The position numbers were made by a program, and so were the translations under genes. This document shows positions 1 to 58,935 of a stretch of 60,812 bases of DNA, in pieces (the first letter of the stretch is position 1; every line of letters begins with the position of its first letter). The notes below the pieces were generated by a model. That model made no database searches. It worked only from the letters and a program-made list of their open reading frames with translations, and was not told the origin of the DNA. The stretch spans positions 1 through 60,812 of the forward strand of contig JAEOUM010000177.1 of NCBI GenBank assembly GCA_016839275.1. The letters run 5' to 3'. This DNA is from Candidatus Thorarchaeota archaeon (GTDB lineage: Archaea; Asgardarchaeota; Thorarchaeia; Thorarchaeales; Thorarchaeaceae).

Positions 1-800
1 AGTGACTTCGCGCACTTTCACACGCGGCCCCTCACTGCAAGCAGCTGCGGGCATCTCGGTTTCCCTTCGTTTACGGCTTGTCGCCTTATCCTTGCCACGC
101 CCATGAACTCCCTGGCCCGTGTTTCGAGACGGATGATGCTGATTCGATCCACTCGAGTCCTACAACACAATCACTCATGCTTCGTTCCCCGAGTATCTTA
201 TCTTGTAATCAGCATCCTTTGAATAAACCAGTGGTTTCAGGTGCTTTTCACCCCGCTTCCGCGGCACTTTTCAACTTTCGCTCGCGCTACATAGTTTACT
301 ATCGGTTTGGCTGAGTATTTAGGCTTCGCAGATTGTACCTGCGATGTTCACGCGAGAAAACCAACCCGCGCTACTCTGGTTCCACAAACATACCGGCATC
401 TTACGCCTACGGGGGTGTCACCCTCTACGCCGTGTCGTTCCAGACAACCTCGGCTTCGTATGCTAAGGTAATTGTTCGTGATCCTTACACCACATCCCCC
501 TGTACTCGTCGCACAGGGATTCGGTTTGGCCTATTCCCCTTTCGCTCGCTGTTACTTGGGGAATCACAGTTGTTTTCTTTTCCTGCCCGTACTAAGATGC
601 TTCAGTTCCGAGCGTTCCCAATCCGAGAATGACCCCGGATCCATATGGGGTATTAACCCATATGAGGAAGTCCCATTCAGGTATCCGCGGATCAAAGACT
701 TCATGCGTCTACCCGCGGCATATCGCAGCTTGTCACGCCCTTCTTCAGCTAGCCAACCTAGTCATCCACCACTGGCCGTATAGCGAAATTGCGGACCTAG
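1..800 (-). rRNA. 23S rRNA, 5' portion (gene continues beyond window start)
   Basis: Reverse complement near 700-800 reads ...GGTGGATGACTAGGTTGGCTAGCTGAAGAAGGGCGTGACAAGCTGCGATATGCC..., the typical archaeal 23S 5' domain; conserved 23S-like sequence continues to position 1. The 5' end is approximate (+/-30 nt). Confidence 0.93.
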
Positions 801-29430: not shown

Positions 29431-29502
29431 TCACAATGTGATTTCATCCATAATTGTATTCAACATGACAAAACTGTCTTTTCGATAGTCACATCTTGTG
29501 AC
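29431..29502 (+). promoter_or_regulatory. Duplicated palindromic operator-like elements
   Basis: TCACA-A-TGTGATTTCATC (29431) and GTCACA-TCT-TGTGACTTCATC (29488), each followed by YTTCATC. Confidence 0.5.
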
Positions 29503-29532
29503 TTCATCTAGTGACCCCCTAAAGTGGCTTCG

Positions 29533-29542
29533 CTATATATAC
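29533..29542 (+). promoter_or_regulatory. TATA box for the micro-ORF operon
   Basis: CTATATATAC about 32-41 nt upstream of the ATG at 29574. Confidence 0.65.
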
Positions 29543-29573
29543 TAATTCTGAGTAGTATTTCTTGTGAACTATT

Positions 29574-29678
29574 ATGGCTCTAGCAACCAACACCCGGAAC
29601 ATATCTGTGCTGAAGAATAAGACTGGTCGAGTTTACTCGACTGAGGCAATCACTTTCGCCTACCAGTATCGGAGGTAA
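29574..29678 (+). CDS. Micro-ORF 1 (34 aa): MALATNTRNISVLKNKTGRVYSTEAITFAYQYRR
   Basis: TATA upstream; C-terminal motif shared with the next ORF with mainly synonymous codon differences. Confidence 0.65.
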   Translation: MALATNTRNISVLKNKTGRVYSTEAITFAYQYRR

Positions 29679-29684
29679 AATATC

Positions 29685-29771
29685 ATGGCTCTATTGAGAA
29701 AGACAAGTAAGAATTCCTATAATAAGAGAATCTCTACTGACGCAATTACCCACGCTTACATGTACAGGTAG
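29685..29771 (+). CDS. Micro-ORF 2 (28 aa): MALLRKTSKNSYNKRISTDAITHAYMYR
   Basis: SD GGAGGT at 29671-29676, overlapping the stop of micro-ORF 1; paralogous to ORF 1. Confidence 0.65.
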   Translation: MALLRKTSKNSYNKRISTDAITHAYMYR

Positions 29772-29777
29772 ATTACA

Positions 29778-29885
29778 ATGGCATCGCAGAAATCATCTTT
29801 CGACAACCACCCTAGTACAACCAACGATAAAGCAAATAATCGTTGTTTAACAGATGAAGAAGTGCTCTTGCTCGAGGCGACCTGA
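29778..29885 (+). CDS. Micro-ORF 3 (35 aa): MASQKSSFDNHPSTTNDKANNRCLTDEEVLLLEAT
   Basis: Starts 6 nt after the stop of ORF 2; SD weak (ACAGGTAG). Confidence 0.45.
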   Translation: MASQKSSFDNHPSTTNDKANNRCLTDEEVLLLEAT

Positions 29886-29918
29886 GCACTTCAAACTTGT
29901 TTTCAATACTTTGAATGA

Positions 29919-55926: not shown

Positions 55927-58900
55927 GTGAAGGTTGAGAAACGAGATAAGAGAATAGTAGACTTTGACGATTCGAAAATTGAGGCGGCCATTACAAAAGC
56001 CTTCGAAGCAGGTGACATAGACACTGGTCCAGTCCGTGGCATCACGAAAGAAGTGGTCCAGATAATTCATGAACTTGGAAAGGATGTCATCAATATTGAA
56101 GAGATACAAGATATTGTTGAAGACACCCTGATGCTACGAGGCTTTACAGATATTGCACGACGATACATGAAATACCGTGAGAAGCATCAGGAAGCCCGAA
56201 GAATCCTCCAGATGGTTGGCGTTGTGGATGATCTTAAGTTCGGGCCTAATGCAGCAACCGTGTTAAAGAGATATCTTTTGAAAAATGAAGAGGGCAAAGC
56301 TATTGAAACACCATCGCAACTTTTTCGAAGAGTATCTGGAGCGGTAGCGAGCAGTGAGAAGAAGTATGATGAAAGTGCTGATGTAAAAGAATATGATGAC
56401 CTCTTTTACTCAATGATGGCTAATCTTGAGTTTCTTCCTAATAGTCCAACTCTCTTCAATGCTGGTACAACACTTGGTCAGTGCAGTGCATGTTTTGTAC
56501 TTCCGATTGATGATGATATGAACTCTATCTTCACCTCTCTCAAACATATGGCAATGGTTCAGAAATCGGGCGGCGGGACAGGATTCTCATTCTCGAGACT
56601 GCGGCCTAAGGGAGCCCGAGTTGGTACTACGGGAGGAATAGCAAGCGGACCGATTTCATTCATGCGCGCATATGATACAGCTACGGATGTAATCAAGCAA
56701 GGAGGACGCAGAAGAGGGGCGAATATGGCGATACTCCGGTGTGATCATCCGGACATTATGGAATTCATATCATGCAAGTCTGATAAGCAAGCATTTCGTA
56801 ACTTCAACATCTCAGTTGCAGTAACAAAGAAATTCATGTCAGCGTTGAAAGATGATGCAGAAATAGAGCTGATTAGTCCTCATACAAAAGAATCAGTCAA
56901 GAGTATCAGTGCAAGAGCAGTCTTCGATGCAATCGTTCATAATGCATGGAGCACCGGCGATCCGGGAATCATCTTCATAGATCGGATTAATGAGAAGCAC
57001 CCGCTCAGCGGAGAACTAATTGAGTCCACAAATCCTTGTGTATCAGGGGATACTATTGTTAGTACTAGTAAAGGATTGATGAATATCCAAGATGTACCTG
57101 GTGTGATGAAAACTGCAAAGAAACTTGTCTATCGTCTTCAGACAAAGGAAGGATATCAGGTCAAAGTCACCAGAGATCATCGAATCCTTACGATATCTGG
57201 ATGGAAACGAGCAGGGGATTTGTGTAAAGGTGATAAACTATGCCTTCAGGTTAATGAGGAGGGATTCGGTCAAACAGGCAATCTCCGAATTGGTCAAATT
57301 CTTGGATGGTATGTTGGAGATGGATGGAGTACTGGAAAGGATCGTCGAGCCACTCTTGCATTCTATGGAAGGGATAAAGGAAGGCTGACTCATTATTACC
57401 TCAGCATTGTTAATGAGGAGCTCGAATCTGACTTAGTAGTAATAAAGAGCAAGAAACGAGAGGAGGTCAGGTCAAGGAGGATTTTGAAGCTTGTTCAAGA
57501 CTGGGAGATGAAATCAAAGAATATCTCGAAACTTTTGCTCTCATCATCAATGGAATGTCAAAGGGGCTTTTTGCAAGGATTATTCAGCGCAGATGGATCA
57601 GTCCAAGGAAGCCACCAAAAAGGTTTCACAGTACGACTAGCTCAAAGCAATCTGGATGTTCTATGTCGTGTACAAATTATGCTACTCAATTTTGGAATTG
57701 TTGCCAAAATTTATTCGAATAGACGGAGTGAACAAAAGCGATTAATGCCCAACAGTAAAGGACAACCCAATCTATACAGAACCAGAGCGAGTCATGAGCT
57801 AATTATATCAAAAGAGAATATTGTGGAATTCAGAGATAGGATTGGTTTTCTCCTAGATTACAAGCAGAAGCGATTAGTCAATGGTATAGAGTCATTAAAA
57901 GCACGTGGCCCTTACAAAGAGAGATTCTTTGCAAAATTTGAATCATTAACACCCCTTCAGGAAGAGGACGTCTTTGATATTGTTGCAACGCCTAGAGGTG
58001 GTTTTGTTGCAAATGGAATCATTGTGCATAATTGTGGCGAACAACCACTATTACCCTATGAGTCGTGTGTTCTTGGAAGCATAAATCTCTCAAAAATGGT
58101 CAGAGAAGGTGAGGTTCATTGGGAACGCCTTGAGGAGGTTATCCGCCTGGCAGTTCGATTCTTGGACAACATCATCGATTTGAATGTCTACCCGGTCAGT
58201 GAAATTGAAGCAGTAACAAAAGCCAATCGAAAGATCGGATTGGGAATAATGGGATTTGCAGAACTCCTTATTCAACTTGGGATCCCCTATGATTCAGAGA
58301 GAGGAATTGAGAAAGCAGAGGAAATCATGTCTTTCATCAAACAGAGGGCTGAACGTGCATCATCAGAACTGGCAAAGATACGAGGAAATTTCGAGAACTT
58401 CGCCCTTTTGAAGAAACGTAACACTTGGAAACGTAATGCGACATTAATTACAGTGGCGCCCACAGGTAGTATCGGTCTAATCGCACAGACATCCAGCGGG
58501 ATAGAACCATTATTTGCCGTAGCTCATAGTCGAATATTAGCTGAGGGTATCAATCTCAGCGAGGTGAATCCTCTGTTCAAAGCGATAGCTGAGAAAAGAG
58601 GGATATGGACAGATGAGCTTGAACGTCAGGTTGTGAGAACCGGGACTGTTCAAGACGTAGATTCAGTACCTGAAGATCTCAAACGTCTCTTCAAGACTGC
58701 ACACGAGATTAATCCGGCATGGCATGTTAGAATACAAGCTGCTTTCCAAAAACACACTGATAATGCGGTTAGCAAGACAGTGAATCTTCAAAATCAGGCA
58801 ACCACAGAAGATGTCGAGCGAATATTCCTATTAGCTGATGAACTTCAGCTCAAGGGTATAACCATCTTTAGGGATGGATGCCTTGATGGAGTTCAAGTTC

Positions 58901-58935
58901 TCTATAGTGGATGTACAAATTGTGATGTTCAGTAA
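55927..58935 (+). CDS. nrdJ: Class II (adenosylcobalamin-dependent) ribonucleotide reductase, intein-containing
   Basis: N-terminal ATP-cone; NSPTLFNAGT..CSACFVLPI; KSGGGTGFSFSRLRPKGARVGTTGGIASGPISFM; CGEQPLLPYESCVLGSINL; APTGSIGLIAQTSSGIEPLF. Confidence 0.95.
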   Translation: MKVEKRDKRIVDFDDSKIEAAITKAFEAGDIDTGPVRGITKEVVQIIHELGKDVINIEEIQDIVEDTLMLRGFTDIARRYMKYREKHQEARRILQMVGVVDDLKFGPNAATVLKRYLLKNEEGKAIETPSQLFRRVSGAVASSEKKYDESADVKEYDDLFYSMMANLEFLPNSPTLFNAGTTLGQCSACFVLPIDDDMNSIFTSLKHMAMVQKSGGGTGFSFSRLRPKGARVGTTGGIASGPISFMRAYDTATDVIKQGGRRRGANMAILRCDHPDIMEFISCKSDKQAFRNFNISVAVTKKFMSALKDDAEIELISPHTKESVKSISARAVFDAIVHNAWSTGDPGIIFIDRINEKHPLSGELIESTNPCVSGDTIVSTSKGLMNIQDVPGVMKTAKKLVYRLQTKEGYQVKVTRDHRILTISGWKRAGDLCKGDKLCLQVNEEGFGQTGNLRIGQILGWYVGDGWSTGKDRRATLAFYGRDKGRLTHYYLSIVNEELESDLVVIKSKKREEVRSRRILKLVQDWEMKSKNISKLLLSSSMECQRGFLQGLFSADGSVQGSHQKGFTVRLAQSNLDVLCRVQIMLLNFGIVAKIYSNRRSEQKRLMPNSKGQPNLYRTRASHELIISKENIVEFRDRIGFLLDYKQKRLVNGIESLKARGPYKERFFAKFESLTPLQEEDVFDIVATPRGGFVANGIIVHNCGEQPLLPYESCVLGSINLSKMVREGEVHWERLEEVIRLAVRFLDNIIDLNVYPVSEIEAVTKANRKIGLGIMGFAELLIQLGIPYDSERGIEKAEEIMSFIKQRAERASSELAKIRGNFENFALLKKRNTWKRNATLITVAPTGSIGLIAQTSSGIEPLFAVAHSRILAEGINLSEVNPLFKAIAEKRGIWTDELERQVVRTGTVQDVDSVPEDLKRLFKTAHEINPAWHVRIQAAFQKHTDNAVSKTVNLQNQATTEDVERIFLLADELQLKGITIFRDGCLDGVQVLYSGCTNCDVQ
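57037..58032 (+). mobile_element. Intein (332 aa) with LAGLIDADG-type homing endonuclease domain
   Basis: Starts C-VSGDTIVSTSKG, ends VANGIIVHN before +1 Cys of CGEQ; DOD motifs ILGWYVGDGW and FLQGLFSADGSV. Confidence 0.93.

Follow-up and report, generated by a model that had tools for sequence, protein, structure and literature searches.

A predicted lineage-specific, multi-copy operon of coupled microproteins in Candidatus Thorarchaeota

Are three back-to-back open reading frames of 34, 28 and 35 codons in a genome of Candidatus Thorarchaeota real genes, and if so, what might such small proteins do? They lie on the forward strand of the window (the whole stretch of DNA analyzed, 60,812 nt), and the coordinates proposed for them in the initial annotation were confirmed:

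29574–29678, + strand: ORF A (ORF1), a 34-aa basic microprotein MALATNTRNISVLKNKTGRVYSTEAITFAYQYRR with C-terminal STEAITFAYQYRR
29673–29678, + strand: AGG TAA, the last Arg codon and stop of A and the core of the Shine-Dalgarno sequence of B (GGAGGTAA)
29685–29771, + strand: ORF B (ORF2), a 28-aa basic microprotein MALLRKTSKNSYNKRISTDAITHAYMYR, paralogue of A, with C-terminal ISTDAITHAYMYR
29778–29885, + strand: ORF C (ORF3), a 35-aa acidic microprotein MASQKSSFDNHPSTTNDKANNRCLTDEEVLLLEAT with C-terminal DEEVLLLEAT, unrelated to A and B

The 6-nt gap described between B and C is indeed present, and A and B are separated by 6 nt as well. The overlap of the A stop with the Shine-Dalgarno of B was also as described, since the 3′ end of A (CGG AGG TAA) encodes Arg-Arg-stop and at the same time contains this site; the AGG TAG at the 3′ end of B, absent from the earlier description, provides a shorter Shine-Dalgarno for C. 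The gene 3′ of the operon is convergent and its end lies 34 nt past the C stop. We regard it as virtually certain that A-B-C is a real protein-coding operon. That the microproteins are genes is nearly certain, while their role is what we infer. Judged by sequence, A-B-C reads as a lineage-specific, multi-copy microprotein operon, on account of the kept frames, the promoter with its operator, the Shine-Dalgarno sequences embedded in the stops, the 3′ hairpin, the conserved positions and an operator shared with membrane and surface genes.

A DNA search found related stretches in four other contigs of the same genome. With a profile of ten peptides we detected 13 family members in six contigs of this genome, 6–14 members per genome in the other 18 genomes of the same taxonomic family in the first sample, and no member in ten genomes of other families in that sample. 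With matches in 19 of 19 first-sample genomes of the family, the set clearly exceeds chance. A profile of 48 A sequences matched in 43 of 47 genomes of the window’s family and in 0 of 180 other genomes of the phylum, where genomes beyond those listed were taken, following the sort order, as other families. The promoter pattern alone gave 111 matching stretches in the named genome collection, which overlaps the profile-searched genomes so that the two counts are not independent; among the 80 matches listed, approximately 70 came from Candidatus Thorarchaeota (with Lokiarchaeota RBin_111 or simply archaeon as the label in a few cases) and approximately 10 from scattered bacteria, about the chance expectation. 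All genomes compared are metagenome-assembled.

From 92 of 93 loci, 78 A, 63 B, 32 other and 11 singleton members and 34 copies of C were obtained, with classes and locus groups assigned by scripts and by eye. Grouping by flanking genes gave positions I (that of the window), II, III, IV, V and VI and a singleton position S; about six conserved positions per genome hold most copies. At position I, genes for a desulfoferrodoxin and a membrane protein lie upstream, and a convergent fam8, an acetyltransferase-like fam9 and a transketolase-like fam12 (the latter two named by eye) lie downstream. Thirteen loci, including one from a different genus, occupy this position, and its sharing across species reflects vertical inheritance. 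Among 53 cases, there were 17 in which the A peptide had its nearest relative within its own genome, at a different locus and with up to 99% identity; this suggests gene conversion between loci. At locus IV the order is A, a conserved element, A'', B' and an MFS gene, with the last microprotein stop approximately 4–6 nt 5′ of the MFS start; in the main genus, the operons at loci I, II, V and VI contained no MFS gene.

A and B had been described as paralogous peptides under selection, and the comparison bears this out. Both belong to one family with a basic tail followed by a C-terminal ST-[DE]-A-[ILV]-x-x-A-Y-x-Y-R-R-stop; the full consensus starts with MAL-[AT]-[TK]-N..., continues with a variable basic middle and ends in S-T-[DE]-A-[ILV]-x-x-A-Y-x-Y-R-R or ...T-V-V-R. 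The synonymous differences listed for the block shared by the window’s A and B (TCG/TCT, ATC/ATT, ACT/ACC, GCC/GCT, TAT/TAC, CGG/AGG) are all correct. Members are short (A 32–38 aa, B 24–33 aa), and their best-conserved residues fall in the C-terminal helix, not in the basic tail. The pN/pS was 0.49 for 78 first-position (A) ORFs vs. 1.07 and 1.32 in the other frames, and 0.36 for 63 B ORFs vs. 1.22 and 1.02; singletons and other members gave 0.34 and 0.30, respectively. By these ratios, the A and B frames are under purifying selection. Lack of conservation in relatives, and stops or indels within the frames, were looked for and contradicted by the 78 A ORFs of 32–38 codons, in which the frame is kept; length differences among members preserve it.

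Of 157 ORFs that are followed by a coupled ORF, 137 have AGG as the last codon. Locus V generally lacks such a following ORF, and there 10 of 12 members still terminate in Arg-Arg, but CGC or CGT is the codon in 8. As Arg-Arg is kept with CGC/CGT at locus V and with AGG before a coupled ORF, the dipeptide serves the protein, whereas the codon serves the ribosome that initiates next. These CGC/CGT ends with no ORF behind led us to reject the idea that the C-terminal Arg merely results from the Shine-Dalgarno.

C is a distinct conserved partner family and not a paralogue of A/B. Its 34 copies, found at loci I, II and VI and at one V locus, are acidic (mean charge –2.5) and share the end motif [ED]-V-L-x-x-[ED]-[AVP]-T-stop, the family ending being EVLLxEAT. 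The pN/pS of C was 0.62, compared to 0.79 and 1.11 in the other frames. Its 3′ end overlaps a further feature:

29859–29892, + strand: terminator-like hairpin GAAGTGCTC/GAGCACTTC, which shares nucleotides with the EVL codons and the stop codon of C

Here GAAGTGCTC, which encodes E-V-L, pairs with GAGCACTTC, which starts inside the stop codon. The hairpin of the window folds at –17.7 kcal/mol (z –2.7). Across 41 loci, 6–9 of the 9 pairs are kept, with pair 6 occurring as GC in 26, AT in 9 and GT in 4, and a T run follows in 37 of 41. The EAT codons within the loop vary synonymously, and in L133 the C motif is retained despite a TAG stop and a degraded stem. Since a weak stem does not entail loss of the motif, both layers, the protein motif and the hairpin, appear to be selected. 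Because these layers overlap, the coding evidence is the weakest for C among the three ORFs.

The TATA box noted 5′ of the set was found within a strongly conserved upstream region:

29486–29573, + strand: predicted regulated promoter and leader, conserved across 59 loci
29488–29502, + strand: palindromic operator GTCACATCTTGTGAC
29510–29515, + strand: third operator half-site AGTGAC
29534–29541, + strand: TATA element TATATATA, preceded by GTGGCTTCGC

A TTGTGAA lies just 5′ of the A start. In 59 loci at positions I, III, IV, V and VI, the 88 nt 5′ of A showed 80% mean identity with 42 columns at or above 95%, vs. 21% in the 50 nt just upstream of the promoter and 63% in A itself. Five of the approximately six locus types thus share one promoter, with the consensus TAGTCACAnnnTGTGACtnnnnnnTGTGACCC...GTGGCTTCGCTATATATAC...TTGTGAAnnATnATGG and the putative operator GTCACA-N3-TGTGAC-N7-TGTGAC. 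With one mismatch allowed, the operator pattern matched in 13 of 13 genomes of the same genus and in none of six genomes of other families, and a reversed control pattern gave 0 matches anywhere. The promoter of locus II differs and is of a TTTG...CAAACC type; this second palindromic form reads TGGTTTG...CAAACC-TTATAT (e.g., L051, L104), and a similar promoter was seen also 5′ of the MFS gene of locus III. The singletons of position S (MALAKNEKRKLKRAKKYQSTEALAYAYLY..), located between the conserved fam31 and fam13, do not have the GTCACA promoter (L053, L058, L064, L072, L080, L084, L095, L100, L106, L109, L116). In deeper Thorarchaeota (L148, L154, L203, L218, L224) the shared promoter is found 5′ of micro-ORFs that have diverged strongly, as illustrated by MKMKSPSQRSINQIRLTPRDSPRKENLYYEYYRRLN of L154. 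All three operator sites found in one such deeper chromosome precede micro-ORFs, and another has a single site.

In about a dozen genomes inspected for a regulon beyond the microproteins, operator sites away from the micro-ORFs precede a gene for a bactofilin-like protein (Pfam Bactofilin, E 5e-12), a gene for a multi-span membrane protein (roughly 360–390 aa, several spans) and genes of MFS transporters. These genes and the micro-operons very probably form a shared regulon, as read from the common operator. In all 11 loci with the operator 5′ of the bactofilin-like gene (L145 2630–4325; L259, L261, L263, L265, L266, L269, L271, L272, L274, L275), a very conserved HTH_45 protein is encoded next to this operator. 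Its candidacy as the operator-binding regulator was weakened by its occurrence also in families without the microproteins.

At loci III and IV a conserved element lies between A and the next micro-ORF (e.g., L008 256–406; L007, L103). Almost unchanged among 18 copies, it comprises TGGTCA(C) as three direct repeats, with TGTGACCA downstream of them; it may fold as an RNA hairpin or serve as a second operator built on the half-site already seen in the promoter. This region, ‘D’, was rejected as a fourth microprotein since, though open in many copies, it has frame shifts or no ATG in some; we read it as a cis element.

No match above the cut-off was obtained in Pfam, NCBIfam, PHROGs or PDB sequences. 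The best matches below it were DUF5053 (E 0.017, 1 of 10 members) and the TrpLE leader (E 0.022, 8 residues), followed by phrog_11044 (E 0.15) and uS11 (E 0.8). In viral contigs no A/B relative was confirmed by tblastn, and a viral origin was set aside for lack of any such sign. Rfam at the gathering threshold recognized a single feature in the window and three loci, an incomplete archaeal LSU rRNA at the starting edge of the window (1–793, – strand). By eye, we also observed at 55927–58935 (+ strand) a 1002-aa ORF resembling a ribonucleotide reductase interrupted by an intein.

What might A, B and C do? An AlphaFold model of A, of moderate confidence and with a pTM of 0.27, has residues 1–22 unstructured and one short helix at 23–32, with a mean pLDDT of 82 in the helix block and about 59 in the tail. 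The C-terminal helices of A and B in the window have mean hydrophobicities of –0.20 and –0.01, hydrophobic moments of 0.35 and 0.02, and a net charge of +5 each. Our preferred reading, which we consider quite possible if somewhat short of probable, is that A-B-C are small proteins which are translated together, belong to a regulon for the envelope or export, and use the C-terminal helix to dock on a partner. A DNA-binding regulator at the GTCACA/TGTGAC operator would control the micro-operons together with the bactofilin-like polymer, multi-span membrane protein and MFS genes, probably in response to envelope stress or toxic compounds. Coupled translation would yield basic A/B (approximately +4 to +6) and acidic C in a set proportion. 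Each would consist of a disordered tail and a short conserved C-terminal helix or motif, and this end would dock on a common partner, a membrane transporter or polymer, and modulate it. Points that count against this reading are the lack of an MFS gene in the main-genus operons of loci I, II, V and VI, the different promoter of locus II, the HTH_45 protein in families without the microproteins and the model of A as a lone short helix. The role in the envelope or in export is in itself a tentative proposal of about the same strength; an adaptor or modulator mode of action is rather unlikely. Among the suggestions of the initial annotation (a signalling, regulatory or modified peptide), the regulatory one fits best, and the modified peptide found no support: no leader or modification enzyme was seen and Cys is almost absent from A/B.

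AcrZ (acting on AcrB), SgrT and MgtR are small proteins under stress-type regulators that act on transporters, and modulators of this type have a membrane-spanning or strongly hydrophobic helix. Similarly, one A/B locus type is in an operon with an MFS transporter; yet A, B and C have no such helix and no sequence relation to these proteins.

The strongest rival, although unlikely, is that A and B bind nucleic acids or ribosomes, as abundant small basic proteins coating RNA, DNA or ribosomes under stress, with the copies giving dosage. Their net charge (+4.5 for A and +5.5 for B), mostly in the tail, the multiple copies and the strongly conserved promoter agree with this. However, C is acidic, conservation peaks in the C-terminal helix instead of the basic tail, and the other genes under the shared operator encode membrane proteins or a polymer.

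Antibiotic-type leader peptides and attenuators are short ORFs coupled 5′ of a regulated gene, and the translation of the micro-ORFs, not the product, might likewise control a downstream transporter gene. Locus IV resembles this arrangement, as its micro-ORFs run into the MFS gene across gaps of approximately 4–6 nt, with the conserved element in between. We consider the explanation improbable for the family: in most locus types the micro-ORFs are not immediately followed by a transporter gene, the three-ORF operons of loci I and II end in the hairpin with T run before a convergent gene (as at the window), purifying selection acts on the amino acids, and Arg-Arg is kept with other codons.

Leaderless bacteriocins such as aureocin A70 and enterocin L50 are tandem cationic paralogous peptides without a leader, as are A and B, which are also of similar size; by analogy, A/B could be antimicrobials with the MFS protein for export or immunity, given a transporter nearby at some loci. 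Unlike the bacteriocins, A/B have hydrophilic, disordered tails and are joined by an acidic third peptide, the helical saposin-like fold is not seen in the model of A, the loci are fixed and vertically inherited in nearly all genomes of the family rather than sporadic, and the transporter is absent at most of them, which makes this quite improbable. Leaderless multi-peptide bacteriocins of this kind (aureocin A70, enterocin L50) are treated in a review (PMC6131525).

It is very improbable that promoter and hairpin form an RNA- or DNA-level element with incidental ORFs: the promoter is better conserved than the ORFs and the C end overlaps a covarying hairpin, but pN/pS is below 0.5 for A/B only in the named frame, length changes preserve that frame, the EAT loop codons vary synonymously and L133 keeps the C motif over its degraded stem. 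A mobile or selfish repeat, suggested by the several alike copies per genome and the same-genome nearest relatives (17 of 53), is scarcely credible, as positions and neighbors are conserved across species and partly across genera, incidental reading of the loci noticed no inverted ends or transposase gene, and gene conversion better explains the similarity between loci.

Returning to the docking reading, its widest form, possible but somewhat doubtful, is a family-wide response system of Thorarchaeota, in which a single regulator and operator would govern dispersed micro-operons together with the bactofilin-like polymer, the multi-span membrane protein and MFS exporters; A/B and C would form an adaptor complex of a new kind, and gene conversion would keep the loci alike. 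No paper describing the microprotein operon family was found in an open library, and we regard the gene family and its regulated system as categorically new, a label independent of any proven function. No known prokaryotes are more closely related to eukaryotes than the Asgard archaea, and to our knowledge the small proteins of this group are almost unstudied. The operon set is an overlooked gene family and not noise: a microprotein family retained at fixed loci by almost all sampled members of its taxonomic family, behind a strikingly conserved promoter and absent from the family libraries searched. It offers concrete targets: a defined operator as a route to the regulator, peptides of known sequence for proteomics and a bactofilin-like protein predicted to be co-regulated.
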